From Ianthella basta (taxonomy: Eukaryota; Porifera; Demospongiae; Verongiida; Ianthellidae), in NCBI GenBank assembly GCA_964019415.1, contig OZ025882.1, forward strand, positions 6,460,512 through 6,524,511: a stretch of 64,000 nt of DNA, read 5' to 3'. The notes under the pieces were generated by a model that was given only the letters and a program-made list of their open reading frames with translations, had not been told where the DNA came from and searched no databases. Both the position numbers and the translations under genes were made by a program. Below, one piece after another: positions 19,901 to 62,290 of this stretch (the first letter of the stretch is position 1; each line of letters opens with the position of its first letter).

Positions 19901-21014
19901 CAATAACCTTGGACCATCCACTTGCATTGCATGGCCTAGACTCACAATTATTAGCTTGGAATATCTGCCAGCTATTTTCCCCTTCATCTTCATTTACACC
20001 ATTTGGCTTTTGAAGAGTGTGCAGCATAGAGGATACATCTGCTGCTGCTGGCCATGTAAGACACTGCTGCAGAAGGCAAGTGCAGTTATCCACCGTCTGA
20101 GGAGAAAATGGTCCCCAAACAGCACCATCATACATGGATTAACGGCATTCATGGCATTGTCATATACTAAATTTCTCATAACTTCAATGCAACTTCTAAC
20201 ACCATCATACCTTGAAGTTGATCTCAAATTTCAATACATCGCAGTGCATTCTGACAGCTACTTGCCATATGCTAGTGGACAGCACCTCCCATACATGATC
20301 TGTGCTATGTTGGTTCTGTTCACGTTCGTGGCCATCCCACCCCTCATCCTCATCCTGGTCCCCCTGGTACCCCGAGCAGCTGTCCACCTGCAACCTGAGA
20401 GGTCTAACAGGGCCATCTGGCTCTGTGACAAAATGTTTGCTGGACCGAAGTGGCAACTCTTCCTGGATGCATTCCAGGGAGGGTTCAAACCCAAGTTCTC
20501 CTTCTTTGCTGGGCTGTTCTTCCTTTACCGAATTGTCATCATTGCCACCTACAGCTTTAGAACCCGTCTAGAGTATCAGTATATCCTTCAAATACTGCTG
20601 ATCGTCATCGTCCTCGTCATCCACTCCAATTGTCAGCCATACAAGAGGAAAATTCATAATGTCATTGACACACTCATCTATGGCAATATGCTGATTATTG
20701 TTCTTCTTGGAGTATGTCTTTGGTATAAATCATCACATGAAGGCCAACAATCAAAAGAAGTAGTCATGTTTGCTATTTTCATTATGAACATCCCACAGAT
20801 CAGTTTCTTTGTGTACCTCATATACAAGGCCATCAAAGGCATACGCAAGGGAGTGTTAGTGTGGAGACTGAGACGGAGGACGAACAGCGCACCACAAGGG
20901 GAGGAAAACTCAGAGGAGAGGGACCTGGAGCTTCTCACAAACAGCTTCCATTATCGAATTGATTATGCAGCCCTCGACGACGACTTTGCAAGTGAAATGG
21001 CTTTAATAGATTAA
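16935..21014 (+). CDS. PMP-B: beta-helix-like ectodomain, multi-pass membrane protein (1359 aa)
   Basis: This is the tandem paralogue of PMP-A, also intronless. The start at 16935 (MKAVHVHAILLLC) aligns with the PMP-A start and begins a signal peptide. The ectodomain repeats the N-x-T/S-rich beta-helix motifs (HCKFSDNKAVYGGGLSAYF, HCKFIGNSAYWGGGLSI). A Cys-rich stalk with LCSQCKAGYGYN follows, then 8-9 hydrophobic segments and a tail ending ASEMALID. The long tract LPYMICAMLVLFTFVAIPP and the residues after it are nearly identical to PMP-A at the nucleotide level, whereas the ectodomains differ widely. The ligand, partners and function are unknown. Identity as a surface receptor or adhesion protein is inferred from architecture only. 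Confidence 0.85.
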   Translation: MKAVHVHAILLLCVLASRVPGYQAQKTCPKTGISITPEVCLVAKNDSSSYKINSSNETCNLDAYIQSVDRTSRNVTIRLRNGLTYHLSTIFNFTNHMYFELTGCSGDECTPGAVIQCTGQEGGLFFERIHGTVKIKGVHFEDCQLPIQNFSSTCPATDMMDDHAALYVGYSGEVSIDYVTVSKSKGAGLVFNSVEQAHVTNSVFSYAKHGIQVFMPQNVDTNLPEATVNHSHNKVSQYSFNSCRFINNSALPTRTGNDSTKRNMFYRGGGLSLYWMGNTSHVVVNITHCKFSDNKAVYGGGLSAYFQGKATNNTLYTSNTTFSRNEGAPYDRKTRRIESGGGGAQVMLAAYPYDQAWLMNNSIIFKHCKFIGNSAYWGGGLSIVSAHADSYSAHEVANNFLLESCEWKRNRARLGSAVDCIPWDRLGSGTLPVVIIADSTTENNTIFYNDADMVKIGGAGTIYTDLITLSLEGKNSFGYNTGSGISAVNAVVRFKTDSYTMFVKNHGLYGGGLALYGNAKMVLYSGTHIVFDTNRAKLEGGAIFHNICSPRNLITAQNCFIQYENTTTHPKDWNVTIHFNCNYAEMNGHSVLGSSLLPCIWTGAPYGHGSDVDINTNLKEVFRWNDTFVFSDNCSSSEDAPHNTDGSEISTGPAVANESTLETIKAYPGQLLQLSGNVTDEFNTSICTVFRGVSDNHSEGDLHIGGQYVSNLIMQFEGREGASFNLKLYSPWSLTFILRSKVKLLQCPPGFAYNTDSKMCKCSQKQMWAITGCSSKPGEAHALLRSGYWAGYIKPPKDATSSQHGQFHVCEEEMANNQNSSCIFVTGSCRKGSCSKLYSGALRDSKPLPTRASNKDITRVVCSPQHSEGILCSQCKAGYGYNIIGYGLECVRCIENPSNQDYAKVWAQWAASRFLPLVIMVSVFLLFDIDILTGSMQSFIFYSQMIAFLSPLLDKAIKLHKTKEAAEVSFMMYDIWQLKYFEFILQRVTNNLGPSTCIAWPRLTIISLEYLPAIFPFIFIYTIWLLKSVQHRGYICCCWPCKTLLQKASAVIHRLRRKWSPNSTIIHGLTAFMALSYTKFLITSMQLLTPSYLEVDLKFQYIAVHSDSYLPYASGQHLPYMICAMLVLFTFVAIPPLILILVPLVPRAAVHLQPERSNRAIWLCDKMFAGPKWQLFLDAFQGGFKPKFSFFAGLFFLYRIVIIATYSFRTRLEYQYILQILLIVIVLVIHSNCQPYKRKIHNVIDTLIYGNMLIIVLLGVCLWYKSSHEGQQSKEVVMFAIFIMNIPQISFFVYLIYKAIKGIRKGVLVWRLRRRTNSAPQGEENSEERDLELLTNSFHYRIDYAALDDDFASEMALID

Positions 21015-29842: not shown

Positions 29843-39041
<9,199 letters not shown>

Positions 39042-41664: not shown

Positions 41665-42288
41665 CTATGTATACGGAGTGACCATCTCCTCGGACTCGGG
41701 TATACCGGACTGCTCTTTTGCTTCAAGTATCCCACTTGATTCATCCTCGGGATCCAAGCACTCATATTCCTTAGAGAAATCCTTATGGCAACTTTTACAG
41801 AAACATTCAGAGGTAGGCAGGGCCGCTATCCCACCATCTGTGTGGTGCAGGGAGAAGCACAGTTATTATTAAGATACAGTACACATTATTTTCTTTATGT
41901 CACACATGTAATGTACACACATCACACTGCATCTCATTATCACATTCATCTTCAAGATATGCACTCACAAATAAGATCTTTAGTGATTTCCTCAATCCAC
42001 TTAGCTGGGATATCTTCAAAGCAGAAATCCCTTTTCATGGCACTCAATAGTGCTCCCCAGGTACGAGGTATACAGGAACCACATTCCAGCCACTTCTGAA
42101 AGACTGCTGTGATGTGGAATTTATCATCACCACTGTAAAGCTGCACAGGCAGACCCAGGGTGAAGCAAAAGGCACTGGCGTATGGTCGACTTGCCGGTGG
42201 AAGGCGCTGCACTATAAAGTAGTGCAGGTCAATAAGACGAGGCCTGCTCCTGAGCACTGCAGCAAAGGAAGACAGAACAGGCTGCCAT

Positions 42289-42325
<37 letters not shown>

Positions 42326-44149
42326 CACACAGCACCATACAGCATCACGTCCAAGCACACACAATTACCTACGTATTGCATGTGGGCATGTAGAAAACTT
42401 ACAGGCCTTCTTAATGTTAGCTTCCATTTCAGCCATTCTTGCTTCCAAGCCAGCCTTCACACATTAGTTCAAGAGAGAGAACAAGAAAGCATCACAAACA
42501 GCACTGACTACCTCCAAAGAGCATACGTACCAGGCTGGTTGCATGTGACATAACACACCTTTGCCTTAGCTAGAGTATTAGCACTTTCTTGTATAATACA
42601 CATCGTTCTGTTGTCCTCAGCCCACTTTGCTTCCCATTTGACTACCTATAGGACGGAATATAAGGCAAGCGCACAGTACACACAGTGTGATCTTAGTCTT
42701 GTGCGGGTAGATCGCCTTCAAGGAGTGGTCTGGCAACGCAAGACTAGTATGAATGTCAAATGACAGTCAATCTTAGTCTGACATAGCTGGACCATTTCTC
42801 CATAAAAAAAGTAGTCCATCTACATGAGACTAGAATGACATATACACAGAACACCTGTGAAAAGCACCACGACACACTATCTGATATACATTCATTAGTA
42901 TGTGTACTGTAAATGGTATGTTACTCACTTTTGCCTTCAGCTCCTCACAGGTTGCAATCCACTTGGTACACTGCTGTTCAGCTGCTCTTTTTCCTTGCAC
43001 TGCACTCTCCAGCTCGCTGCACTTCTGCAGGTAGGAAACAAGGCGATGAAGGTTTAATGCACTGTAGCAAAGTCTTGGGGATCATAATTATTAACCACAT
43101 GCACACACCTCCTTACACAAGACCTCCACCTGACTAATCTTGAGACACAGCTGCGCGTACATTTTCTGATAGGATGGACAAGCATGCATGTTAATACTTG
43201 AGCAGAGAATGGAAGGGAGTGACAAATGCATGCCGTGTCGCATCAGAATGTGATGATGACATACCATTGCAGCACTGAGAACCTTCTCCTTTTCAGCCAA
43301 TTTATCCGTACATGAAGTTGTCAAGTGCTTCAACTTAGCCTGCATGTTTACCATGAAGCATTGCACTGTATCACACATGCACCAAGTGAGATAATGTGTG
43401 TGTGCCGTGGGTTTGTGTGTAGCATTTACAATGGTCATATGCTCACTTTCAAAGCGGCAATGCTTTCATCCTTATCAGCTACCTTCTTCTTCCAATATGT
43501 CTCCGTCTGCTCTAACTTCCTGGTAGTGCTGGTTGCAGTGCTGGCCTCCAGACTTTTCATCTCTTCTTTTAGCTGCTTTATATGTAGTTCCTAAACAAAG
43601 GAAAGATCTCATTTCTAAATTAAACCCCTGTATATAAAAGCAGTATTAATCTGCTAATGCCTTCAAGTATGTATTAAGCACCATCTCCAGTGTTGCCTCA
43701 CTGCGTGAGGAGTGTTAGTGCCAGTAGCCCTAGGCCTAGACCTGGTGGAGCTAGACTCAATCACTGTGCAGCTATTTGTACATGCATTTATGTACTATTA
43801 CTGCCATAGCATATGTATACACAATGTGTACATGTATGTGTGTGTAATGCGCAATAGCATGCATACTCACATGCCCCCTTTTTTCATTCTGTACCCTTTC
43901 AATAACACAATTGCGTTCCTTGATATGATTCACCAGACAGTCCTTCTCCTCAAACTCCGCCTTCATTTTTAAGGTAACGGACTTTTGGTGGGTGATGAAG
44001 ATGACATAAGCCATAAGAATAGATAGAATAGCACCAACAAGGAATATAAGCCTTGGCATTCCCTCAGTTGCACTGACATCCACCAATGTTGGCAGCAGTG
44101 CAGGACAGGAGCGGTACACCGGCTGTCCTACTGCAAACACTTCTTCCAT
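41665..44149 (-). CDS. DD1: membrane-anchored coiled-coil Death-domain protein (416 aa)
   Basis: Nine exons: 44149-43871, 43590-43447, 43339-43265, 43165-43109, 43024-42929, 42645-42559, 42454-42403, 42256-41969 and 41837-41665, with every phase agreeing. Exon 1 carries one membrane segment (LIFLVGAILSILMAYVIFI, about residues 34-52) followed by charged coiled coil. Exons 2-7 add further coiled coil (KKKVADKDESIAALK, ARMAEMEANIKKA). Exon 8 (288 nt, phase 1-1) is a Death-fold module: [47 protein letters not shown]. Exon 9 has ECFCKSCHKDFSKEYE and an acidic tail ending SEEMVTPYT. Such modules mediate homotypic assembly in death and innate immune signalling; that role is inferred here. DD2 is a close paralogue. 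The domain call rests on pattern, not on a search. Confidence 0.75.
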
Positions 44150-45428
44150 TTTAAGTCACCTTCAACAACAACAGAGCAATAGGGGGCTGCTAAGGACACA
44201 GACACAGGCACTACTGTGACACAGGGAACTGTGCACAACAATCTGCAGGGGAAGGTACCAACAGTCATTGTGAAAGTCAGTGTTCCCACATTGGGGCACC
44301 CTTACAATCTCACTCAACACAATGCAACAACAACATTAATTGAATATTCATAAGCCCAGCATGCCATAATCACGTGTTGCGCATGCAAAGTCCATGCATC
44401 ACCCCACGGAGCCTAGTCACAAGTTAGAGCATTCAACAGACACAAAACGGGTGGGGTGACCTTGGTACACAGACTACCCACTAATCTAGTGGCAGTGACT
44501 AATGCTGAGCCAACAGTATCCTGTTATAAAGCCATTATCCCGCCTGACCTAAATTCATCCACATCGTCTCCATTAAATTTTATCATCAATTCTCAACATG
44601 GCTCAAACCCCCAGGGGAGGGCGGTAAGTACAGTAAGACACCCATTAAATGTGGAAGTAAAATGTGGAGAGTAGACAAAGATATAATTATACTCTATGGT
44701 ATCTATCAGTGTCATCGGAAATACCTCCTTTCCAGACAATCGCGCGTACCGCAAACTCCACACACTTGGTCCAACACCGGAAATAGCAGATGACCAAACT
44801 ATTAAGCGCCTGGAGCGTGTAGGATAAGCGCTGCCGCGCCGCCTGCCATTTTTGCGGAAGTGGAGTTGGTGAGGCATGCGTAGATTGGTTGATCTACGGT
44901 GCGCGGCTAATTAGTTGTGACTCTGTGGCCTTTTCTTCCATCATTCCATGTACATGTCTTTCGTCTCTTAGGTAGCTACTCCTGACTAACTCAGAAACAG
45001 AAGCAGCTTCATGCTCAAAGTGTATCAGGTTCTGTAGATAGACACGGGGCGCCTCATCCGGGTTCCTAACTCCATGATCAAGAAATCGCGCGCTCCATAA
45101 TTAACCAATAAATTTAATTGCATTAATTTGCTACTGTACTGCTGTCTTCCAAGCATGCTAGTCTGGCTTGCTAGACCATCCCAGGAAACACCTCAGGACA
45201 AGGAGGGGAGGGTACACAGCCCAAAGATAGCTTGCAGTATCATGCTACCATGATTGTAGTATTAATCCACACACATTATTACTTTATAAACAATGCCAGA
45301 TATATCGTTACAATGTGTGCACACGCAGACACCTATAGTTGTGACATGCCAGCTCTGTTATAAGCTATTCCTATAGCTAGTATATACGTAGTAGAAATGT
45401 ATTATTCTGGCATTTTCTCTACATGGCC
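44150..45428. other. DD1 promoter region and DD2 3' flank
   Basis: No gene is supported. A GC-rich patch at about 44740-44960, rich in CG dinucleotides, could be a promoter, and 45130-45350 is the duplicated 3' flank of DD2. Confidence 0.4.
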
Positions 45429-46051
45429 TTATTTATACGGTGTGACCATCTCCTCCGACTTTGGTATACCGGACTGCTCCTTCGCTTCAACTGTCCCCCC
45501 CGAATCATCCTCAGTATCCGAACCCTCGTATTCCTTAGAAAAATCCTCCTTACAGCGCATACAGAAGCATTCCTGGGTGGATAGGGCAGCTACCCCACCA
45601 TCTGTGTAGTGCAGGGAGAGACTATTGTTGGCAAGATACTCATCATTTTGTCACAAGCATTAATCACATGTACACACACCACAATGCATCTTATTATCAC
45701 ATCTATTATATATCTACCAATATGTACTCACAAATGAGGTCTGCAGTTATATCATCAATCCATGTGGCTGGGAGGTCTTCACAGCGGAAATACCCTTTAA
45801 TGGCACTCAATAGTGCTCCCCAGGTACGAGGCACACAGGAACCACGTTCCAGCCACTTACGAAAGGCTGTTGTGAGCTGGAATTTATCATCACCACTGGA
45901 AAACTGCATACTCAGACCGAGGGTGAAGCAAAAGGCGTTGGCGTATGGTCTAGATGCTTGTGTCAAGCGCCGCACTATAAAGTAGTGCAGGTCAATAAGA
46001 CGAGGCCTGCTCTTGAGCACTGCACCAAAGAAAGACAGAACAGGCTGTCAT

Positions 46052-46109
<58 letters not shown>

Positions 46110-46199
46110 CGCATACACACGCACACACCCACACCCACACCGCACACACACGCACACACACACGCACGCACACACGCACACACACCACACACCACACAC

Positions 46200-46254
<55 letters not shown>

Positions 46255-48854
46255 ACTTACTGCAGCACAGAGATCTATAATACAGCACATGTATACAAGT
46301 ACACAATGCTTACAGGCCTTCTTATAGTTGGATTCCATTTCAGCCACTTTTCTTTGCATAGCATAAAACTTCTCCTTCCAATCATCCACCTGTGACAGTA
46401 GATGCACATTTTAACTTGGCCTACGTAGTGACACAGAATCAATGGGTTGGATGACCACAACCCCTAGGACCTAGTTACATAAAGCTGTATTGAAATCTAC
46501 AACATGGTGACTTCCACACACAATTGTATACAGTGGAACCTATCTAAAATGGTCACTGAGTTAGGCAGCCACCTCTCTAAAACAGTCAGCCTCCCTGGCC
46601 CCAAATAGCACTAAAGCATTGCAGTCTACCTCTGTAGAGCAGCCACCTCTCTATAAAGGTCAGTTAGAGCTGGCTCACAGGCGGCTGTCATAGACAGGTT
46701 CCACTGTATGCACACTGTAGGCCTACACTCCAGCATGAACACGGGGTTCACCTTCCACATACTGTAGCATGGCATGCAATGCATGCCCACTTGTCTGCAG
46801 TCTGCACACATTCATATTGTGCTGCTCACCTCCTGCTTCATTTTCTCATTAGCTACCTCCAGCTCCATTTTCAACATTCTTTCCTTCTCAACTGCTAGTA
46901 AAACTGCAGCAGATTCCTACAGGTATGGTGCTAATAGTTATTGTGCATGAACCATGCAGGTGATTTAGGAGCAATGCGTACACACCTCCTTGCATTTAGC
47001 CACCAGCTGTCTAGTCTTTGCATTAGCTAGAGCCTTCTCAGAAGTCTCCTAAAGGGACAAGCAGACAGATGTGTGTGACCTCATATCCATCAAGACACCA
47101 TCTCAATTGACACAAGCATCACTCAATCAACAGACTTACTTTCACAGAGGCAAGAATCTTATTAATTTCAGCCACATACAGTGCCCAGTCTTTCTTGCCT
47201 CTCTCCAGCTCTTGCTACAGTACATACAAACACAATGATGGCAATTATACAGCACACACACACACATGGTTTAGTATTAATGCAACAAGTTCAGTCATCA
47301 GTATTATTGATCCTATACTTACAGTATTGCTGAGATTGCAGCAAGGCACTGAATATGAATGCAGGGTTCTTGTCTCAACTAACATCTGTACTTTGTCAAC
47401 AAGAAGTGTGTGCATGTGCTGACCAAAAGGGGCACTTATCCTGTGATAGAGTACAGTGGCACTACCATACGGCCCACTGCAGACTGCGCCTGACCAAAAT
47501 GGCGGTCTGGCTACACAAGACTAGCTGCAAGCAAGGTACCTTCATTTTCAAGCTACATTACACTTTCATTTAAATGCGAACTAACTATAAACACCACTGG
47601 TCACAGCTCAAACACATGCAGGGCCATGTTACGCCTGGCATTCAATTGGCATGTTTTCATCATTGCCAACATGACAACCAGTCCACTGAACAGCTAGGCC
47701 TTCAATCCACTTTAAATGGCTACATTACAACATTTCTCTGTGCATGCATATGCATGGCTACAGCATTCAGCCAACATTCATGTCAAATAGCTACATAAAC
47801 ACCACTGGCTTTCTCATGATGTGAGGCTGTTGAACAGTATTAAGCTAACAACTACAATGTATATAATCATTCTTTCACCTTCAGAGTGGCAGTTTCTGCC
47901 TTGGATTGCGCTATCATCCCTTGCCAATACACTCTCTCCTCCTCCCTGCTGGCCTTCAGGCTCGCTATTTCCTTATTGAGCCGTATCACATGTATTTCCT
48001 AAACATTGAGAAAAGAGTTTTGTACAAAGAGCACCAAGCAGGTTGTGCTTGAAGTTGAATCCTATCCTGAATACTTCTGCATTGTACACAATGACTAGAG
48101 TCAGGAAAAAATCCCCCAGTCATAGCCAGCCTGACCCCTTTGCAAATGGGACCTGTCCTATGTAAACACTGTGGGCTTCCACCCACACACCAAATTTAGG
48201 CAATCATGTTCCTCCCCTTATCCTACAGACACTTTGGATCAGAACCCAGAACAGGTTTGGAGCATGAAGTTGTGTTATTGTGCTTCTATCCAGTGAGTAC
48301 TGTTCGTTAATGGAAGTTTCCTCAAATGAGAAATGTCAGCATTAGCAAAGCCTGTAATGACAGCACTAATTGTCGATGTGAGTTTAGAGGGAAAGGCTGA
48401 GTGAGAAATAATGACTACAACGGGATACACTAGAGAGGAATTACCAGGCTAAAATAAGTTACAGGCAGAAGCCTGAGCTGCATCATTTAGTTCTTGTAGC
48501 TATAGGCTATGTCCCACATGCGTTATCTACAGCATTACTCATAACACCCAAGATGTATGAATGACAAACATTTCCTGGATGAAGGCATACATTTGCAAGT
48601 GTAGAGTTGACTACTCTAAATAGCTGCATTCTCACTTGCATCCTCTTTTCATGCTGCAGATCTCTAATATGCTTCATCATAGCATTTCTTTCTTCTTCAA
48701 ACTTCATCCTTGCAGCCACGTACTCCTCAATTATGAATTGAGGGGGCAAGTGCTGAAGCCTTTGCATCTCTTGCGCTGCAGCTGGCAATGGCATATTTCC
48801 ATTTCCCCACATGGGTGAATAGAAAATTGGCTGTTCTGCATAAGAACCATCCAT
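45429..48854 (-). CDS. DD2: soluble coiled-coil Death-domain paralogue (366 aa)
   Basis: Eight exons: 48854-48636, 47998-47879, 47214-47140, 47048-46986, 46916-46830, 46389-46314, 46019-45732 and 45601-45429; all phases agree. The N-terminus [20 protein letters not shown] has no membrane segment, unlike DD1. Coiled-coil exons follow ([52 protein letters not shown]). The Death-domain exon is again 288 nt: [33 protein letters not shown]. The last exon is 173 nt, as in DD1, with [16 protein letters not shown] and SEEMVTPYK. The Death-domain and last exons are far more alike between DD1 and DD2 than the coiled-coil exons. The proteins may assemble through one domain from membrane and cytosol; that is inference. 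Confidence 0.75.
46060..46252. repeat. (AC)n compound microsatellite in DD2
   Basis: AC tract with CGCACAC, CCCACAC and ACCACAC variants in the intron before the Death-domain exon. DD1 has a shorter AC tract at 42289-42322 in the same intron. Confidence 0.9.
46531..46706. mobile_element. 176-bp MITE, CAGTGGAACCT ends, TA duplication
   Basis: The left end CAGTGGAACCTATCTA and the reverse complement of the right end, CAGTGGAACCTGTCTA, are inverted repeats flanked by TA (46529-46530 and 46707-46708). These features fit the Tc1/mariner superfamily, pogo/Tigger-like. It is non-autonomous and sits in a DD2 intron. Confidence 0.8.
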
Positions 48855-50160
48855 TTTAATCCTATAGGAAGGAAGACATAGCGGCTCATGTGACTTAATT
48901 GGTTGCTGATACTGCACGAAGTGGTTACAAGTCTGCCATGTAGCCAGCTTAGAACAACATAAGAACAGCACACATATAGCTACATTGCCCCATCTGTCTA
49001 GCTAGCTGTTAGTGGTAGCTAAGACTTGGTTTAGAGTGCGGTTTGGTTGCTATGGGCCACTGACTGCCAGTCTCATACCCACTGTGGGTAGTATGAGGAG
49101 CATCAATTAGACATTTCCTCGTCCTAGTACCGTTATTTTAGAGTTGACTGAAATCCTTAGGCAATGCACATGATAGTCATGTGGACCAATTGAATTGCTC
49201 ATTGCAATGCACAACACAACTGTTCGCACCACAGGCCTGTCGTACGACTGTAATGGAGAAGACTCCAGTAAACACATGCTACTGAGTAGTCCTGCACATT
49301 TACATTCAACACACTCATGTGACCAAACTGCACACCAAAATCACATGCTGTGGGTTCAGATATAACTCCCCACCTACGCACTGCCCAAACCGCAAATTTC
49401 CTTTCGCCTTTAGTAACGTTTTGGGAAATCTCCACCTGTTCCCGCCCCTATAGCTAAATCTGTGGTATCCATTATGTAGAGTTGCTTAATCCTCGATCTT
49501 TGCTTAATGTTCGAGAAACTGATGTATTCAGAATTCACTGCCTGGTTATCGCATGATGGTAGTGTTTGAGATCTGACAGGCAATCGCACGGACCCCTCCT
49601 GTAAAACGACTCTCAAGCTATACTTCAAGGCACTCCAAGGCGTGAGCTACTGGCCAGACAAGAAACCAGAACACTACGCGAGGACAATCACTCCCAATTA
49701 CCTCACAAACCACACGCGCGATAGGATAGTGCCCGTCACGTCAGATACAAGTTGAGTCCTGTGGCCGGAACTTGGTTTATATAATACTCTGTAGTGACGT
49801 TGGCAGTGTCCATGGCGATTGGTCTAGACGTCACATCCGCCCACATGACGTCCATTCGACCCCCGCACTGTTCGGCGACAGCGAAATCGCCGAAATGCCT
49901 TGGTATGGTACTGTCTATAATCATCATGATGGTAGCTTAATGTTGCCAGCAAATGTCCCAGATATGCTTGTAGAAGTAAACACTGAAGTAGCTAGATACA
50001 TTTCTTAACTACAAACATAAAATACATGATAGCTACTGTGGCAGTCGTATGCCAATCTAACTACAATTCATTGATACTTCGTGTTATCATAGCTACTACT
50101 AGAGTTAGAATCACTATAGCATCTATGAACGTCTCTATAACTAGACGTCGTGCACACTTA
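48855..50160. other. Spacer 5' of DD2; possible CRE-rich promoter near 49790-49860
   Basis: No exon is supported. A patch holds GTGACGTTGG, GACGTCAC, ATGACGTCC and an inverted CCAAT (GATTGGT), typical of a bidirectional promoter, but I cannot tie it to a transcript. Confidence 0.3.
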
Positions 50161-50658
50161 ATCCCCGAGGTTGGTGGACTCTTCCTCTCAGATGAAGATC
50201 TTGTCCTCTTCTTCCTGGATGGATCAAGGAAGGAGCTGGCCACAAGCAATGCAGTGCCCATCTTCCTCCAGCCTGGAGCATGGCATTAACTCTGGGCCAT
50301 AGCAGGAGGAGCAGAACTACTAATGCATATTGCAGTTAACCCAGTGCACCCCAGTAAGTTGCACACACAAGAGCACATACCGTGCAGCCTAGCCTTCAGG
50401 AAGCGTCCAATGCATTGGAACTCTTAAATGCCACTGCTCTCCAGAGCATCAAACAGTGTCTTCCAAATGGGTGGACCACTCCTGCTTCCATTCAACCAAT
50501 GTTGGAACATAGAGTGCCAATTGCGGCTACTGCAAGCTGCCGTGGATATGCCTGCAAGACGTTAAGCCAGAATTCACAATCTTGGCCAGTGGCTATCTGG
50601 GGCAGTTGACTGATGACCAATTGATGGATCTCGCTGTCTCGAGGGATGAACTGTTCAC
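50161..50658 (-). pseudogene. Broken Death-domain unit (exons homologous to 52142-52703)
   Basis: The former 288-nt Death-domain exon is 50658-50381, now 278 nt. It opens GEQFIPRDSEIHQLVISQLP as in the intact copy, shifts frame after WLNVLQA, and has a stop in the former GPPIWKTLF region (SSGI*EF). The last exon, 50291 onward, keeps HCIACGQLLP but then meets TGA (50226-50224) where the intact copy has CGA, and a second TGA further on. One frameshift and three nonsense codons make it a decayed copy. Splice sites are still recognisable. Confidence 0.75.
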
Positions 50659-50734
50659 CTGTAGAATTAGCAGGTGACACACAACAGTGAACTGATGTGC
50701 TGAAGAGCTTGATGTGAGCTATGCTTGCAACCAA

Positions 50735-51775
50735 AAGCTGAACAGTGCAGCACTAGAATGGGGGACAGAGGCAGGCGAGACTCACCCAGGAAAACTTGCT
50801 ACGGTTCTCCTCTGCTATGGCTCCATTGTCAAGTTTCTCATAATCCAAGCTCTATGCAGCATGATGAGGCAGAACAAAGAAGCAATCCTCATCAAACATC
50901 CACAGTGAAATGTGTCTCTCCTTCACTTTACTCTTTGATACACTTTTACAATGACCCGTTCATGCTGTACACACACACACACAAACCAACCTCATACTTG
51001 GCTGAGATAAACTTGCTTCCATCATACCGGTCTCTTGGTGGGATATTACCCTATGCATTAATGTGGCAGAAACACAGCCAACACACCAAACGGTACAAGG
51101 GAGAATATCACAAGACAATACATTTGTGGCTAGTAGGTAGTTACTTGAGCACTTGTGTAGCAGGAACTGTAATTCAGGACGTTTTGGCCATGTAGGTCTT
51201 CATCAGCTGATAAATTGATTATAGATATATGATAGACAGTTTATCAGCTGATGAAGGCCTACGTGGCCAAAATGTCCTGAATTACAGTTCCTGCTACGCA
51301 AGTGCTCGAGTAACTAGCTACTAGCTACATTACTTCCTGTAGCAATGAGTCTCTATGCTATCATTGACAATACATTTGTTCGAGACATTAAGGCACTAGT
51401 TGGTGTTGCTGGTATACTATGCTGAGAATTGCGTATTCCCACTCACAAACATACTACTGAGCAAGGAGTAAGATTTATTCCGAGCACATACAACTCCACG
51501 TGCACAGTGCATGCACACACACACACACACGCACACACACACACACACTGTAACGTACCATGTTGGAGTAGCCTCTCAGGCCAACCCAACCCTTCGTAGA
51601 ATCACCATGGGTCAGCAAGAATGTTCTGTCAAATTTTCATGCATAAACAACATGTATAATGGCATACTCATTGAAAATTAGATGTGAAGGACCAGGTTAA
51701 TGCTTGTAAGAGGCACCACACAGTGTGTGTGTATGTGTGTGTCCATGCATTATTGAATAGTCAAAGAAAACAGAT
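50735..51775 (-). pseudogene. Duplicated CLCN7 fragment (exons 3-5)
   Basis: The segment is a near-identical copy of 37430-38470. Exon 5 (SLDYEKLDNGAIAEEN), exon 4 (NIPPRDRYDGSKFISAKYE) and exon 3 (GWVGLRGYSNM) can all be read without stops. A deletion removes the exon 3 acceptor (TTCTTTCAAG), exon 2 is absent, and no other CLCN7 exon is nearby, so it cannot make a channel. It carries a fold-back element insertion at 51127-51365. Confidence 0.85.
51127..51365. mobile_element. Fold-back element 1 (239 bp, 13-bp target duplication)
   Basis: GACAATACATTTG flanks the element on both sides (51114-51126, 51366-51378). The CLCN7 parent shows the equivalent empty site near 37827 (GACAATACACTTG). The element is mostly a long hairpin: CACTTGTGTAGCAGGAACTG pairs with CAGTTCCTGCTACGCAAGTG, and GTAGGTCTTCATCAGCTGAT with its reverse. 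An unpaired 3' tail (TAGCAATGAGTCTCTATG) follows. No ORF is present. Confidence 0.85.
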
Positions 51776-52141
51776 TTCATTGCACCCAATAGTTATATGT
51801 ACAGAACTCAACTGATTTAACCTCTGCTGCCTTCATGGCTTACAGAGTTGCACCAGTACATGTACATTATATGTATGCATAGCTGCTGCACAAAACCTAT
51901 AGCTTAACATGCACATGCATATCCATTACAGTTCATCCAATGTTACTACACACATCAATTGACAATAAACACTTGGATAGTAGCTATTTCCTAGTGCACA
52001 CTGCACACATGACTCCGTGGCACTCATGGGCCACTTCACTACAAAGTTGCTTTGTTTCTACTGTGCTACACTCAGTAAGTTCTAGTCTATTTGAATTACA
52101 GGCCAACTAGCTATGCCTGGAAGCCTAGCCTACAGTCACAC

Positions 52142-52703
52142 TTAGTCATTAGCTATGGTGTTGTTGGACTCCTCCTCCGGAATGAATATCTTATCTTCTT
52201 CTTGGATGGGTCGAGGAAGTAGCTGGTCACATGCAATACAGTGCCAATCTGTGGATATCTCCAGCCTGGACCATGGTAGTATCTCTGAAGCATGGAGGAA
52301 GTTGTTGAACCAGATACTATAGGACGCACAATCTACATACACCTAGCTACTTCTAACACCTGTTCACCTACGTAATGTACAGTGTGCAGCGTGGAGCACG
52401 ACATACAGTACATACCATGCAGCCTAGCCTGCAGGAAGTGTGCGATGCGCTGGAGCTCTCTAACGCGGCTGTTCTCCAGAAGATAAAGTAGTGTCTTCCA
52501 AATAGGTGGGCCATTTCCCCTGCCACTCAGCCAATGTTGAAACACAGACTGCAAATTGTGGCTATTGCAGGCTAAAGTGGAAAGGCCTAACTCAGCCTGC
52601 AAAACTGTAAACCAGTGTTCACAGTCTTGGCCGGTGTCAGTCTGCGGCAGTTGACTGATGATCAATTGATGGATCTCGCTGTCTCGAGGGATGAACTGTT
52701 CAC
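52142..52703 (-). CDS. DD3: intact Death-domain exon and last exon
   Basis: Exon 52703-52416 is again 288 nt, phase 1-1, like the Death-domain exons of DD1 and DD2. It encodes GEQFIPRDSEIHQLIISQLP, VLQAELGLSTLACNSHNLQ and VFQHWLSGRGNGPPIWKTLL, with the Death-fold pattern of a Trp-Lys-x-Leu-Leu helix. The last exon 52284-52142 encodes WHCIACDQLLPRPIQEEDK and ends ESNNTIAND. These two exons probably end the long coiled-coil gene at 54179-61183. The phase requires one more exon of length 3n+1 between 54179 and 52703, which I could not find; a MITE lies in that gap. Confidence 0.7.
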
Positions 52704-53478
52704 CTGTAGAATTAGCAGGTGACACACAACAGTGAACTGATGTGTGAATTGCTTGATGAGAACTCCACTACGTAAAGATTAGGGTCATTGTCGTTTATTC
52801 AGTGTGATAATTGTCACATTCCAAAGTGTGAACAGCCATCCAGCAAACCAGCATGATTTTGACAAGATTCGCAATCTGTTCATGGTAAACTCCATGGGAA
52901 TATTTTGTGAGAGAAAAACTCTAAAATATGGCCCAAATATTTATTTTGAGAGAACATTTTCACATCTTGCACAACTTTAATGAAGATATGTAGGCCTACC
53001 CCCCGTACAGTGGTGGCATCTAACTACTTAGATACTGCTGGACTGCCGCGGAATGCTTTGGAAAAACACATGGTAGAAGTTACATTGTACTCTGCCATCC
53101 TTTACCAAGTGTGAGGCTTTCCTGTGGGGTATTGTGCCAGTATACGTACTCTCAGTACTGTGCAGTCTATTCAGTAGTTTCCTCTTTGACTGTAACACTG
53201 TAGATTTACAACAGTAACTGTTACCTTCTTCACTGCTATATATATTAGTGGCTGTGATAGTGTTAATGGTGCATGAGCCGTCTGCCTTCATTAGCACTGA
53301 ATCAGCTCAACATCGATCAGGATCTGGCTCGTATTAAACAGTTGCAAAACATAGGGTGGCAGCACGAGCACAAGGGACTGTAGCTTCTGAGTGTGCATAG
53401 CTGCTGTCATGTCCTAGTGTCTGGCCAACTAAATGCTTGAGGCTATAACCTATCATCTTGTTTTAGCTCGCCACACAT

Positions 53479-53885
53479 TAGTTTCGTCCCCAGCCCACTT
53501 CCGGCCGCCATTTTGCAATTGCCCAAAAGGTGGTCTGGCACATTTGTTCAATATTTTGATACCACCTTTGAGGTGCTTGCCAACATCTTGGCAAGTACCT
53601 CCATGTCTTGCGATACGCAATGTAACAGCTTCATTCGCTCACCTACGTGAGTCGTATTCAGGTATTCTATCAAATGAGACCCATCTGCGCCCAATTTGAC
53701 TGCTTCCACAATTTCAAAAGATGGCCTGGTACAGTTTCTCAATGTCCGTTACAGCCCCTTGAGGTGATTCTGGCAAGCGCCCCAATCCGTGCATGCATGT
53801 GATGCGACATACTGAAAGTTTTCAATTAATCAAAATATTGAGCAAATGTGCCAGACCACCTTTCGGGGGGCTGGGAACGAGACTA
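53479..53885. mobile_element. 407-bp TIR element with 9-bp target duplication
   Basis: The ends TAGTTTCGTCCCCAGCC and the reverse complement of the right end, TAGTCTCGTTCCCAGCC, are inverted, and the similarity continues inward (AGGTGGTCTGGCACATTTG). GCCACACAT flanks both sides (53470-53478, 53886-53894). No transposase ORF is present. The 9-bp duplication suggests a Mutator-like element; hAT is less likely. Confidence 0.85.
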
Positions 53886-54178
53886 GCCACACATGGGCCA
53901 AAATATAAGCAAAGGGTTAATGCAAAACGTTCACGGAGAATATTTTGGTGAATCAGTTCATCTGCAAAATCCACAAAAATATTCTCTTGTGAAATTTCTC
54001 ACTATGCGGTATTTGCCCATGTATATGTACCTAACCACATAATTATAGATTTACATGCCAGTCTTAGTGTAATGGATGCACGGACATGTGTACAAACATG
54101 TGTAGTTATTCATGTTGAGAGATATATGCACAGTGCTGTACGTAGCAACATACAAATCTGCTGACAATCCACTGACAC

Positions 54179-57100
54179 CTTCACGAACCCTTCTTCACCC
54201 TTTTCGTGCAACTCTGACAGAATTTGTACTCGTGCCTTCAAATTTGCTATCCTACGATTCTTATACTGGTCAGCAAGAAGAAAGCAAAGATCATACAGTC
54301 GCGCACACTTAAGCCTCAAAGTATAAGAAAATGCTACTCACTCGTATTACTTTCCATGGCCAGTTGGTAAGAACTCTGAGAATGGGAGAGCGTTGCTTAT
54401 AGCTGGTGATGATGTTCTGCAGATATAAAGGAGTTATGGCAGTGTATACGTACCATTGCAGTGCAATACGAATAAGCAGAAGGACTTACGTTAGCCCGGC
54501 TGATAAGAGCTCGCCTTTCAGCTGCTAGCATCAGATTCTGAAACCAAACAAAGGGATCACAGCTGTGCTATACACACTATTCACACTTCACCCTCATAGC
54601 CCATGCATGCACACCTACAGTAATAAAGAATCTTCTTTTCTTTGACCGAGGCATGGCGTTGTCTGCTGGCATACATGGGAAGTCTACTATCCAATCCTGC
54701 ATGGAGGCAAATGATAATGCCATGCTGAGTACTCAGTATTCGAGAGCTATATAAATTTGTACTAGCAGTTCTGCTCACAGCATATGGTGATGTTATACCA
54801 GCAGACTCCTCAGTAGCCTGTACCACCATCTCGGCTTGCTGTGATGGTGGCAAAGTGTCTGAATAACCAAATGGTAAGTCTTCAGAATCTTGCACTGTTG
54901 GTTCAACAAATTCCAGCGCCAGTTTGCAATTGACAACTTCCTCCTGTGACAATGAAGTATAGGACCTTGGTGTGGGTCATATTAGCTAGATTACTAGGAA
55001 TTATCATGAACAAGTAAATTTCCAACCAAAATGTGCCAGGAGCATGCACTCAAATAGTCAACGTCATCATTATCAATGTTGATTGTGTATATACGTATAT
55101 GAGCATACTCAGTAAGGGACATATATGTCTGATACGCAACCATGACATTTTTCCACCAAATTCCATTCAACAAACACGCATATACCTACGTATGGTACAC
55201 ATGTCACTGTGTATATGAGGATGGCATGCCATATCTGCATGTCCATGACAATAATGTAGCATGTAGCTGCATGAGGGCTCAATTACAAAAGGGCCCCGAA
55301 CTCAGTGGAACTATACATACATACACATACTCTAAATGTAGCTCACGCCTCATATAGAGGCCGGGTTTTGAATTGATAGTGGGTCTCAAATCCACACACA
55401 GCAACTCTTTGACAGAGAGGTGTGGGTTTGAGGTTTGACCCATGGTGGCCAGTTTGAGTTCCCGCTACAGCAACAATGTCCATGAGAAATAGCATGACTT
55501 CTTTCGAGTTGAACGGCACAAATTATAGGTGGAGGAGAGCAAAGAAGAGTTAATGTGTGAGGGATATGGGCATGACTGTCATCCACTCTACATGGTGATC
55601 CGTGTTCAGCTTTCTCAAAAGAGCTGCACCTGTGACTCTACAGATGATCACAGTGCCTATAGCTAACACTCAATAAGATTTCATACAGAACTCGGACTAT
55701 ACATGAAGCTGGACTAAATTTAGAGCCCCAGGCCTCTATTTGGACTAATACAGTACGATATAGTCGCTGAAGGGTGCACGTGACTCATGCAGTCCCATTG
55801 TCCCATTGTTCCTTACCATCCTCTGCAAAGGCTCATCCTTAGTGTCCTTGCAATTCACTTCACCTTCACTGAGGCAGGTCACTTTGTTTGTGTCCTTGCT
55901 CACATCCTACAGTAACAACCACCACACTAAAATGTTAGGATAGCTATAGTAGGCGGCTTACCAAAGTATATTCTGGCACTTACACAGGACTGTGAAGGAT
56001 CAGGCAAGGTTGCCTCCCCATCTTCAACATCTAGTGCAGTGATCTCAGAAGGTGCTGCTTCGGCATCATACCTTGGCTGCATGTTGCTACTGTCTTCTGC
56101 CAACTCGCTGGTGGCTTGAACTTGTCCTGCCTTTCTCCTCATTCGCTTTGCCTACCAATAAAAAAGCATATTTAATTTTCCCAACAGCTGAAGCATTTGC
56201 TTTGGAGCTACGTACATTCAGAGTGTTTCAGACTTTCAGGTAAACTTAAGCAAAGTACCATATGACTGCATTCTATCACATTAATATTAGAGCCATCAAA
56301 TTTTAAGGCACGTTCACACATGCACATTCCATGGACATTGGTTGAGTGCTACCATTTCACAATACATTTGTATCTTTGAATTCTGATTTTGGTGTTCCAC
56401 GTATAATGCCACCTCCCACTCTCACAAAGCACCACGGCACAATTGTCACGGTACAAACTGATCTGCTGTGTATAGGGCAAAAGATGAGGCTTGATATTGA
56501 CGCTGAAAAGCCTCCAATCAATTCTGGTTTGGTGATGATAGAGCCGGTGCATGGTCGAAGTATATATCATGCCTTTCGTCCAAAGTAATTCTATACAGTG
56601 AAACCTCGCTAAAACAACCACCTCTATAAAGCAACCACCTTAGAAATAAAACCGCTTTCATTTAGTCCCAAATCTGTGCAATAATTAATTAATTAAGACC
56701 ACCTCAAAAATAAGACCACTTCGCATGGCCCATATGGTGATCTGATTTCTGAGGTTCCACTGTACATAAATACATACTTCGGCTACTTCATTCTCAACCG
56801 TCTAATGTTCCAATGGAAGCAGCTCCATTCATTGTCTTCTCAGACCTTAGTTACAACCCTCTACATGTGTGCCAAGTTTAAAAGCCAAGCTGCACTTAGG
56901 TAGTTGCAGAGAATTATAACCAATCTATCATGCCAGCTTAATTATGATGCCAAGCCATACATACTTATTTGCAACACAGAACATGTGCACGTCAGCAAAC
57001 TCCTGTGTACTTACCCTTGACTTGCTAGCCTTCTCATGCTTGCTCATTCTCTTAATCTCTTGCTTCTGTGTCATCTCTTCAAGTGCATGCTCCTTTGGTT

Positions 57101-60100
57101 GAACCTGCGGCTGCATGTGTATTTCATAGCATATGTCATAAGTATAGTTCGGGCAAACACACACACACTTGTCAATATGGCACAAAGAAAGTAAGGTGTG
57201 AATCACCTTCATTACTGGCCGTTTCAACTGTTTGCGGAGGTCACCATTCTTCTTCTGCATAATGTAGAACAAATGTGGCTGGGTGCAATCATTGGCACAA
57301 TAAGTAAGACTACACCCAACATTTGCTTTCTGTAGACTAGTAGCAGGCTATTGTATGCACATGAATCGAAAAGCTAATGCATCCAAGAAAAGTTAGAATG
57401 TGATCATACCTTCAAATCTTTCACTTTAGCACGCAAGCTTTGCTCCTTGCTCACACTGAGTTCACACTCTTCCTACATACGCATATTGTGATCACAAACT
57501 GTTAATTTAACCACATGCAGAAACAGCAAGCACAAAGAGGTATAGGTACTCACCTTCAGTTGCACATTCTTCAATGTCAGGGATGCAATTTGCTTATCCT
57601 ACAAAGAATTGAGGCATGGTAACAACATGATAATAAACTGTATGCATTGCAAACTTAGCCATGCAGTGTCACGCACTTTTCAATAACTGCATGCACTGAT
57701 CCATAAAATAAATGCATACACATGGGAAGTATACTCCCACATGTGCATGTCTCACCTGATTCCGTGCAGGGGTACGCTCCACAGCAAGTAACCTATGTTC
57801 CTATGTACCCAATTCAGGGGAGGTACATACATATATTAAGTATTCCATAGTTACGTACCACAATTCTGCAAGCATAGCCTCACCAACATCACTTTCTCTG
57901 CCATAACTTGTTTATATGCAACAAGCTGTGCATCATTCTGTGCATTAGCAAGGTCTCTCTTTGTTTTCTGGAAATGGGACAAGTGAATGGATATAGGTTT
58001 AATGCACATCCTTGCATGTAAGTGTGTTACGACACAAATAACTTACCAGGTTTTCATTTTGCTCTCTCACTTCAGCAACTTCCACTTCAAGCTCAGAACA
58101 TCTGTCATCGAGCTATCAGTGCAAGATACATGACAATGTGGATAAGATACATGACTTGTATGTAGCAAGAGGATAAGACTGAGCTGAAAGACCATTTCTG
58201 TGGGTCACAGTGTTGTGGATACATCCTCACCAAATTGACTCTGTCCTGACACTCTTCCTCCAACTCAGAGTACCATGTGCGCCATTGTGTCACTGTGTCA
58301 TTCAGCTTTCGCTCCTGCAAACAGAGGTACAGTAGAACCTACCTTAACCGGGCAGTGCCCGTAACTCAGAAATGTCCGTATCTTAGAAATACCAACAATA
58401 AAGATTAAATGCAATGTAATTACAATAATTGCAATTAAACTGTAATACAGTACATATAGTACTGTACTGTAATACAGTTTTTTATGAATCAGGCACACAT
58501 GCGCCTTGCCTGTGATACAGAACACACACAACATGAATGAATTGAAATAATTTGACTACAGGACACTGAAACAAGTCTAGTCATCGTGCAGTATGTTCAA
58601 GAATTACACATAACAACCTATGTACTATAATACAGTACATTATTGTCGAGCCAAAAGGCGAGGCAAGTAATTGTGATGCGCTGTCGTCCCCCGTTTGTAT
58701 ATATGTATATCCATCCCAGTCAATCTGAAACACCTAGATTGCACAATAGCCCAGTGTTCTTCGCAGGCGCTCGCGACAACAAAACACTCTATTTGGCCAC
58801 CATCGGCCACCAAACTGCTTAACACTCCACTTCATCGCTGCACGCTACATCCAGATTGTTGTTAACAGCGTCCATTGCTCCAGTGAGGGCTACACACCTG
58901 TTGGCAATTCCACCATATTGGCTAACGTCATTTGCCTCGCGTGGCCAGGAACACTTCCACTGTTCTCTCAGGTGAAGCGCACAATGCGCATTGCGTTAGC
59001 ACAGCACGGACGGGCTTCCCTGCGCAGCTCCAAATATGTAAGTGTCAGTTGTCTAGCTGCCATCCAGTGCTTTGCCTGGCTTGCTATCCCTTCCTTCTGA
59101 CAGCCAGTGAAAGCAGATTACAGTTCTATTGCCCAAAATGTACGTATTTGCCCTGGTTGAGTTACGCTCATGCACTGTACTTTACTGAAATAGCTTGCTA
59201 TATACATTCAAGTGAGGTTGTTTGCATTTTAATGTATGCCCTAGTAGTACTGTACTGAAATACAGTACAAACACATGATCAAAACTTTTTAAGTTATAAA
59301 AATTGATTTTTTAAAAAAAATTTTCTTAAAATCTTTTGCCTGCCCGGTAGAGGGAGGTGCCCATAACTACAAGGGACAAGGGAGGTTCTACCGTACTGTA
59401 TTTGTCCAGACTATACAGTCATTTCTACAAGCACTTTTACATTTAAAACATACATTCCTTCAGCCTTAGCATATTTGTTACGGTGCCGGAAAATGTTCAT
59501 CAGTTTGACATTCAACTATATATTCAGAAATACAATAATTGCCTTAATCTGAGATGGGGTAATGAACAGATAAATGTCATCCAAAGCATGTGTATACGTT
59601 TACACACACCTGCTTTCGTAGATAACGATTCTGCTTATCCAGCTTTCCAATTACTGCCCCTCGGTACTCCTGTATGCAATAGAACAAAAGCATGTGCTAT
59701 GGTAGGAATATCAATAAACAATCGGAAGTACGTAAGGACAAGTGTAAACTTTGGATATACATTCACCATTTCATATTGCTTGTCCTCTACTTGATCTTGC
59801 AGCCATACAACTTGCCCATGCTATTATACAAATGCAATGATAGATTCTGATGACACAATGAACAAAATGCAGACTGATAAAGGTCTAGCATACAGTACAC
59901 CATGCAGATTTCATATCTCTCTCTGCATAGTCACGTACTATCCAAGCATGCAGTACATGCATGTAGATGTCCAATCTGCATAATTCTGAACATGCAGTTA
60001 CTATAATACTTGTAGCAAGCTACAGAACTGTAAGACATACAAATTAGCGACTTGCTTCAATACCATACAAAAATACATGTACTCATGTGTGCAACTGTGT

Positions 60101-61183
60101 GTGTACATATACACGAATAGCTCACTAGGTCTTCATTTTGCTCTCTGACTTCAGCAAGTTCCATTTCAAGGTCCTGATACCTGTCAATAGTCTACATGAA
60201 TCAGTGATAGATGCATGGTAATGTGCATGCGTACAGATACAAATACATAAGCTTACTAGGTCTGCATTTTGCTCTTTGATCTCATTTTCCTCTCTGAGTT
60301 CAACAAGTTCCGCTTCAAGCTGATTACACCTGGCACGGATCTACATGCATGTAAATATCAGTGCAAGATGCATGGTGATGGCTAGTGCGTAGTTGTTCGA
60401 GCACTTGCGTAGCAGAAATTTACTGTAACTCAGCTGAGTCTCTGAGCTGAGACTCACTGAGTTACAGTGAATTTCTGCTATGCAAGATCTACCCACTAGC
60501 CACAATATGTCCCACGTAGCAACGAGTATCTATGTTATCATGCATGGTGATGTATACAAGGTGCATGCATGGAGCTACACTGAAGAACTACTGTCAAAAT
60601 ATAACAGTTTTATGGGTTTTTTCACCTCATTGGCCTCATCCTCAGAGGCTTGCAACCGTTCCTCCTGCAAAGAAGTTAAGTTAAATCCTTATACAGAGAC
60701 TGCAATCAATTGCCGTAAACACACTTATATATTTGCATGCAAATACTATGGTAAACAAACAAGGCTCCTCTGAATCTTTCAGATTCAGAAGGTTTGTCAC
60801 TGAGTGCAAAAATGGCAATTAAAGCAAAAACTATACAAGCACTATGCCACCTATAATAACAACATTATAACAAATCTCCTGAAGTGTCTTCTAACAGTAT
60901 TCATAATCTGTATGTCTTCATTGCACGAATACAAACATATGTAGGAATCATCCAGATGGGAACAATGTCATGCAGTTATATACAATGAGCTATAATGGTG
61001 TGCCGGTCATTGCCAGTACATTAATATACCTGCATATACGTCTCCATTCGCAACTGTGTCATCTGTGCCTTAGCATGCTCCACATACAATTCCAGATCCT
61101 TCTTATCCTTAAGAAGGCATCTGATCTTGTGCTTTGCCCTCTCCACCTCCCTCTGCATTTGCATTGTTAGCCACCAATATCCA
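54179..61183 (-). CDS. Long coiled-coil gene, 21+ small exons, probable N-terminal part of DD3
   Basis: Exons: 61183-61030, 60664-60626, 60340-60257, 60191-60126, 59820-59767, 59669-59610, 58314-58231, 58112-58047, 57967-57884, 57800-57756, 57598-57554, 57472-57410, 57254-57207, 57110-57015, 56151-55984, 55906-55817, 54943-54779, 54696-54619, 54537-54490, 54416-54342 and 54265-54179. After the first, all are multiples of 3 in phase 0, about 566 aa in total. The first half is heptad-like coiled coil: DLEMELAEVREQNEDL, SELEVEVAEVREQNENL and AELVELREENEIKEQNADL are repeated exon products. The middle is acidic and Ser/Thr-rich. The last five exons are basic (DWIVDFPCMPADNAMPRSKK, NIITSYKQRSPILRVLTNW). 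The 5' end (an exon in phase 2 upstream of 61183) was not identified. Same strand, exon style and family as DD1/DD2 suggest that it continues into the Death domain at 52.7 kb. Confidence 0.6.
56596..56762. mobile_element. 167-bp MITE, CAGTGAAACCTC ends, TA duplication
   Basis: CAGTGAAACCTCGCTAAA on the left and the reverse complement of the right end, CAGTGGAACCTCAGA, are flanked by TA (56594-56595, 56763-56764). It belongs to the same family as the element at 46531. It sits in an intron of the coiled-coil gene. Confidence 0.75.
58330..59393. mobile_element. 1064-bp TIR element in a coiled-coil gene intron
   Basis: The left end CAGTAGAACCTACCTTAAC and the reverse complement of the right end, CGGTAGAACCTCCCTTGT, are imperfect inverted repeats flanked by TA. 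CCGGGCA/TGCCCGG motifs lie just inside both ends. The interior (ORFs of at most 108 codons) shows no transposase motif, so it is non-autonomous or decayed, pogo/Tigger-like by its ends. Confidence 0.65.
60381..60539. mobile_element. Fold-back element 2 (159 bp, 13-bp target duplication)
   Basis: ATGCATGGTGATG flanks both sides (60368-60380, 60540-60552). The outline matches the element at 51127: GCTAGT start, CGAGCACTTGCGTAGCAG arm, a hairpin through CAGCTGAGTCTCTGAGCTGA, the return arm CTGCTATGCAAG, and the 3' tail GTAGCAACGAGTATCTATG. It lies in a coiled-coil gene intron. Confidence 0.82.
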
Positions 61184-62290
61184 CTGCAAAGAGAAAAGTG
61201 AGAACTGCGTGTGTAATCGCTGGTTGTAAGTGCATGTACATAGCTAGCTATAACTGCCTGGTCTGGCCACAGCCTCAGAATCACCTGCAGGTACGTACAG
61301 ACTTCTAGATTTGTCAGCAACCTAATTAACAGCTGCAGAACAGACAGAGACTATAGGCCTGGACTCCTGTGGGTAGCTGCTAAATAGTATTATATGACTA
61401 ATGGGCCACTGGGCTAGCTGGGCTAGCCATGCCCTACTGGATCACAAGCATCAGCAAAGGGTACAAGAGAACTGTGAATACTATGGCTTATTCATGAGCT
61501 GACTCAAGCAATGTGGTCTTGCTTGCGGTCTGCAGCTAAATATATTTACAAACCAAGACCACACATATGCAGATTTAACCCTCTGGTCTGATAGTAACCC
61601 TTTGAGAGCCTCTCATTCAAGTACAGCGAACTACAGCAATAACTCTCATTTCTTAGATAGTACCAAAGAGAAATGACGCAGTACGCAAGCACCAGCCATA
61701 CTACAGAAAGAAAAGTGCTATAATCATCCCAACCTGGGTAAATCATTATCACCTGGGCTGGTTTAATAGCTACTCAGTGCTGTAATATAACCAATCGAGG
61801 TACAATTATCATGTGTGACAATTACAGTATTATACGTACAACAGTGGCGGCAGGACGCATGCATGAACGCACCATGTACCACACGATGCACGAACTGACG
61901 GCTATTTACCCGACTCGCGGCTTCAATGGGTCGACAGAGCACGGCTGTTTCGAGGCGGCAGCTTAGTTTTTGCGAGTAAATTGGAAACGGGAATCCAACA
62001 GTTGGCGTATTCGGAAGGACGGCCTTGTTTTTAGCCTTTTTCTCCGTGATCTCTTGGACAACCACTACGTTACGGCAACGACAGGTAAGCTTGATAGTTG
62101 TTAATGTGCTTATGGGTTTAAAAGCGTTGTTCATGCCTTTTCACTTGTGATATATGGACATATACTTTCTTATGTTTAATTGCTTGTAGCGCGATTCTCC
62201 GGGTTTTCCTGCAATGATGCTATACGTTGTGGGATAGTCCAGCCATCATACAACACTGTACTGTTGAGAGTGTTCTACTGCCATTTTCCT
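61184..62290. other. 5' region of the coiled-coil gene, possible promoter
   Basis: A moderately CG-rich patch at about 61850-62090 ends with a CAG|GTAAGC donor on the plus strand (62084 onward). It could be a first, perhaps non-coding, exon of an unseen plus-strand gene, or the promoter of the coiled-coil gene. No coding exon is certain. Confidence 0.3.

Follow-up and report, generated by a model that had tools for sequence, protein, structure and literature searches.

What kind of proteins are encoded by the tandem genes on the minus strand of a 64,000-nt stretch of the Ianthella basta genome (the window, C15:6460512-6524511; genome of 209 Mb in 96 contigs)? The initial annotation had described three of them, DD1, DD2 and DD3, as a tandem cluster of coiled-coil genes that share a Death-domain exon of fixed length and phase and, as an array, resemble expanding innate immune or cell-death systems. 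A small coiled-coil/Death-type family, clustered on one chromosome and ending in a short cysteine tail, is fairly well supported by sequence analysis, as is the homology, by profile, of its module to the Death-fold superfamily. The module exons in the window are as follows:

41969..42256, minus strand: DD1 Death-type module exon, 288 nt, phase 1/1
45732..46019, minus strand: DD2 Death-type module exon, 288 nt, phase 1/1
52416..52703, minus strand: DD3 Death-type module exon, 288 nt, phase 1/1

Each consists of two leading bases, 95 codons and one trailing base, and the three genes thus have a module exon of equal length and phase in common. In DD1 and DD2, the exon measures 288 nt only when the second AG, which follows a pyrimidine run, is taken as the acceptor; with the first AG, the DD1 exon would be 313 nt long.

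When the genome was searched with the DD1, DD3, DD6 and DD8 modules and two tails, nine modules that look intact were recovered. All of them lie on contig C15, DD1-5 between 6.502 and 6.542 Mb and DD6-9 between 6.920 and 6.970 Mb; DD6 is approx. 0.42 Mb from the genes in the window. The genes thus belong to a real paralogue family with further members; its expansion is modest, with nine members on one contig. All nine module exons are in phase 1/1, although the fixed length of 288 nt holds for DD1-5 (n = 5) and not family-wide (306 nt in DD6; 309 nt in DD7-9). Moreover, exon length and phase are weakened as a hallmark of the family and are less special than they appeared in DD1-3: when the best splice sites were assigned, crudely, to 31 other Death-like exons of the genome, 12 of them (231-363 nt) likewise appeared to be phase 1/1. 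DD3-9 group on a single branch of a tree that includes 29 other Death-like domains (91/91, slightly under the star mark of the tree tool); a single origin for all nine modules was recovered in 47% of bootstrap trees, with DD1-2 unplaced.

The Death-domain reading of the module is supported by several lines of evidence as a Death-type fold. Aligned with 27 Death domains from the same genome (hhalign), DD1-5 reach a probability of 89%, and none of 100 column shuffles attained the score. DD6, which hhalign aligns to DD1-2 with a probability of 96.7% and to DD3-5 with one of 87.9%, exceeds the Pfam Death (PF00531) cut-off (24.4 vs 22.6 bits). When a nine-member profile was compared with the PDB, six of the eight matches with E-values up to 10 were to RIPK1 (four) or PIDD-type chains (9tuf 'PIDD-CC', 2of5), with marginal E-values of 0.058 (the best) to 1.3. 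The predicted structure of DD3 is of moderate confidence (predicted local distance difference test score, pLDDT, 68); in a second alignment of chains taken from Foldseek's own ranking, the six top-Z chains (4.8-7.3) of the 161 aligned were all DED, CARD or PYD. Of the checks that had been proposed for the module, profile comparison relates it to Death domains, and structure prediction places DED/CARD/PYD chains first for the DD3 model; the structure prediction for DD1 is unreliable. It counts against a Death-domain assignment that DD6 alone (1/9) passed the Pfam cut-off: PF00531 had no match in DD1-DD3, DD4, DD5, DD7 or DD9, and DD8 (12.8 bits) stayed below it. DD1-3 are therefore called "Death-type" and not "Pfam Death". 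PDB searches with single modules found no Death domain (one ferredoxin at E 0.088 for DD1, nothing for DD3).

Each module exon in the window is followed by a short last exon:

41665..41837, minus strand: DD1 last exon, YGGIAALPTSECFCKSC, then an acidic tail and the stop codon
45429..45601, minus strand: DD2 last exon
52142..52284, minus strand: DD3 last exon, beginning EILPWSRLEISTDWHCIACDQLLP

A C-x-x-C motif is present in the last exons of all nine family members, against a background of 32 among the 456 open stretches that follow acceptor-like AGs in the window, which bears out the small Cys-containing last exon described initially. An orphan C-x-x-C tail exon (EELASLRMDFHVCVVCRRKI) is located between DD7 and DD8 (L060, ~C15:6963700), where a genome search with one of the modules found no module.

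Upstream of the module, the predicted genes are composed largely of coil and linker exons:

42403..43590 (within), minus strand: DD1 coil exons, 43590-43447, 43339-43265, 43165-43109 and 43024-42929
~42645-42559, minus strand: further DD1 coil exon, followed by a short pre-module exon ending at 42403 (placed by homology to DD2); both less certain
46314..48854, minus strand: DD2 coil exons, 48854-48636 (start codon assumed), 47998-47879, 47214-47140, 47048-46986, 46916-46830 and 46389-46314
54154..61183, minus strand: DD3 coil and linker exons, 20 in the gene-finder model, all entered in phase 0
56151-55984, minus strand: DD3 basic AKRMRRK linker

The gene finder ran DD1 42645-42531 straight into the module; it also predicted a doubtful DD2 exon further upstream, which is excluded from the list, and the end of the last DD3 coil exon (54154) is borrowed from DD4. 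In the nine home-made gene models, whose first exons are uncertain, phase 0 accounts for 81 of the 99 joins predicted upstream of the module, as expected from the initial description of many phase-0 coiled-coil exons. Because the gene finder prefers coil-like residues, coil composition is no evidence for coils. Heptad periodicity is strong in six models (of 200 composition shuffles, 1 reached the observed value for DD1, 0 for DD3, 0 for DD4, 2 for DD5, 0 for DD6 and 1 for DD7), weak in DD2 (17/200) and DD9 (13/200), and absent in the short DD8 model (200/200). When coil and linker exons were compared between or within genes, 31 of 1,880 pairs scored at least 0.08, vs a best score of 0.00 among 1,880 codon-shuffled pairs; this conservation is the strongest check on the models and speaks for real genes. 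The exon series of DD3, DD4 and DD5 are largely collinear, with similar lengths. In particular, three DD3 exons (60340-60257, 60191-60126 and 58112-58047) resemble one another (scores 0.53, 0.24 and 0.21), which argues that coil exons were gained by duplication, at least in DD3, as had been supposed.

This layout suggests signalling scaffolds. The best explanation, to which we give roughly even chances, is that the proteins are coil-oligomerised Death-fold adaptors, similar to CARD-coiled-coil proteins but in reverse order. The N-terminal coils would pre-multimerise the protein (DD1 possibly at the membrane) and probably gather several Death-type modules, which could then seed, or be recruited into, a Death-fold assembly that includes a downstream adaptor. 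Duplication and divergence of coil exons would change the partners chosen or the size of the oligomer, whereas module and tail would stay constant as the signalling end; DD4 and DD5, with their near-identical module exons and diverged coils, fit such a division. The C-x-x-C motif may clamp the tail via zinc or a disulfide. Of this scheme, the sequence shows the layout and supports the fold; that the proteins multimerise and nucleate an assembly, what the C-x-x-C does and any part in immunity or cell death are inferred, for the coils by analogy with CARD9.

It is also possible, though distinctly less probable, that these are structural or transport coiled-coil proteins (of the cytoskeleton, cilium or Golgi) in which the Death-type module serves solely for docking, as it does in ankyrins, and plays no part in immunity or cell death. 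The members are few, and in a Pfam scan of two of the nine predicted proteins, DD2 had no match at all, while DD4 matched generic coil families only, all below cut-off (GAS, TSC22, Lebercilin, NEMO CC2-LZ and others). However, the genome is rich in Death-domain matches (at least 150 scored), and its family members are duplicated, decay and have their 3' ends homogenised, a turnover read here as more typical of defence or recognition genes. The 3' ends of DD4 and DD5 share 3.1 kb at 89% identity. The synonymous divergence (dS) is 0.03 in their module exons and 0.16 in two exons before the module, but 0.85 in five coil exons, which show 38% amino acid identity; this contrast in dS suggests that the 3' end was homogenised or has recombined, and that selection alone is not the cause. 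Between DD1 and DD2 (41665-46019), dS is 0.21 in the module exon vs 0.80 in the adjoining last exon, which suggests local gene conversion. Decay is visible both within the window and elsewhere in the genome:

50161..50659, minus strand: pseudogene fragment between DD2 and DD3 (module exon 50382-50659, last exon 50161-50292), interrupted by stops; 87% identity to DD4

Three broken DD2-like module fragments, with one stop each, lie on contig C1 (L031, L032; 9.170-9.180 Mb). Each is flanked on both sides by TTACGTGGTG, and they are located in tandem units of approx. 4.85 kb (two compared); this looks like an inserted piece that was then amplified.

An unlikely alternative is that the genes encode divergent receptors, in which DD1 would sit in the membrane with its Death-type module inside the cell and the remaining members would act as soluble decoys or co-receptors. 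The feature behind it is the following:

43871..44149, minus strand: DD1 first exon, hydrophobic stretch (possible anchor), then coil; start codon assumed

The open reading frame of this exon contains the hydrophobic stretch LIFLVGAILSILMAYVIFI (mean hydropathy 2.88), the only convincing one in the family models. It is the candidate for the membrane anchor initially assigned to one gene; it depends, however, on an assumed start codon, as the gene finder started DD1 at a later ATG (44014), and it has no confirmation from paralogues, given that the first exons of DD2 and DD6 lack such a stretch and the other models peak weakly (at most 1.7). Only 33 residues precede the stretch in DD1, with no recognisable ectodomain, which also speaks against a receptor. 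A block at 61472-61828 is approx. 77% conserved upstream of DD3, DD4 and DD5. It was considered as a shared N-terminal anchor and rejected, because its frame is not kept open in DD4 and DD5; the block is probably promoter or untranslated sequence, which also counts against the receptor explanation.

The ratio of nonsynonymous to synonymous divergence (dN/dS) of the module exons falls between 0.12 and 0.31 for five of the seven pairs tested; DD4/DD5, with few changes, has 0.65, and DD1/DD2 has 0.75, with 0.20 in the last exon of the latter pair. A decaying duplicated array of mostly functionless pseudogenes is therefore very improbable: the stops in the intergenic copy and the C1 fragments and the weak constraint on the DD1/DD2 modules would fit it, but nine module exons are open, with splice sites and tails intact, and the low ratios indicate constraint.

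A silicatein-type motif had 0 matches in the genome. Several other features were observed in the window:

1-8580: degenerate purine-rich minisatellite of ~8.5 kb, GAGGCAAGAT-like units, extreme strand skew
9791-13873 and 16935-21008, plus strand: adjoining single-ORF (open reading frame) genes of ~1,360 aa each, with right-handed beta-helix similarity, one above and one below the Pfam cut-off; visual inspection shows several hydrophobic stretches
31829-32425: 27-nt units repeated in tandem, with several frames open (AQYIIGPMT / SHWPYNVLS)
37445-37855 and 50713-51195, plus strand: two similar stretches with 25 aa in common, apparently a dispersed repeat

How does the family compare with known systems? 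The DD profile matches the Death domains of RIPK1 and PIDD among solved chains (6/8), but no kinase or LRR was found in DD2 and DD4, the two proteins scanned, in which they differ from RIPK1 and PIDD. Expansions of death-fold proteins in marine animals are already published (PMC8195603, PMC12909245). According to the excerpts of these papers, Death plus TRADD-N proteins have undergone lineage-specific expansions, with 357 proteins in Amphimedon that mostly carry N-terminal death-fold domains, TRADD-N and varied C-terminal domains (PMC8195603), and Death-domain NLRs occur in sponges such as Dysidea avara, for which 128 DEATH genes are given (PMC12909245). The DD family resembles the former in its lineage-specific growth around death-fold domains (PMC8195603) and the latter in having Death domains within a large animal repertoire (PMC12909245). 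No NACHT or LRR was found in DD2 or DD4, and no TRADD-N or effector domain was seen in them with Pfam, which may lack the TRADD-N clade. No description of a coiled-coil/Death family with this layout was found among the listed titles and abstract openings of open-access PMC literature.

The closest likeness is to the CARD-coiled-coil proteins (CARD9/10/11/14) of the CBM signalosome, which also combine a death-fold module with long coiled coils. The excerpt of PMC9342958 states that the CARD9 coil drives multimerisation and helps to nucleate BCL10, and it places the origin of the CBM complex in the cnidarian-bilaterian ancestor; that of PMC5978004 credits Porifera with no paracaspases other than type 2. 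In contrast to CARD-coiled-coil proteins, the DD family has the coil first and the module last, the module is Death-type, and a C-x-x-C tail follows; since the module is C-terminal and not a CARD, these are not CARD-coiled-coil proteins. More tentatively than any reading above except the receptor and pseudogene ones, the family might represent a Death-type counterpart of CARD-coiled-coil scaffolds in one early-branching animal lineage, in which a variable coil was put together exon by exon on a homogenised Death-plus-CxxC signalling end and coil make-up determines the signal that each paralogue nucleates. If the proposed mechanism is true, coil-driven death-fold nucleation would have arisen more than once in animals, with another module and in the opposite domain order, and the collinear, duplicating coil exons would offer a natural series in which to ask how the threshold of a death-fold switch depends on coil valency.
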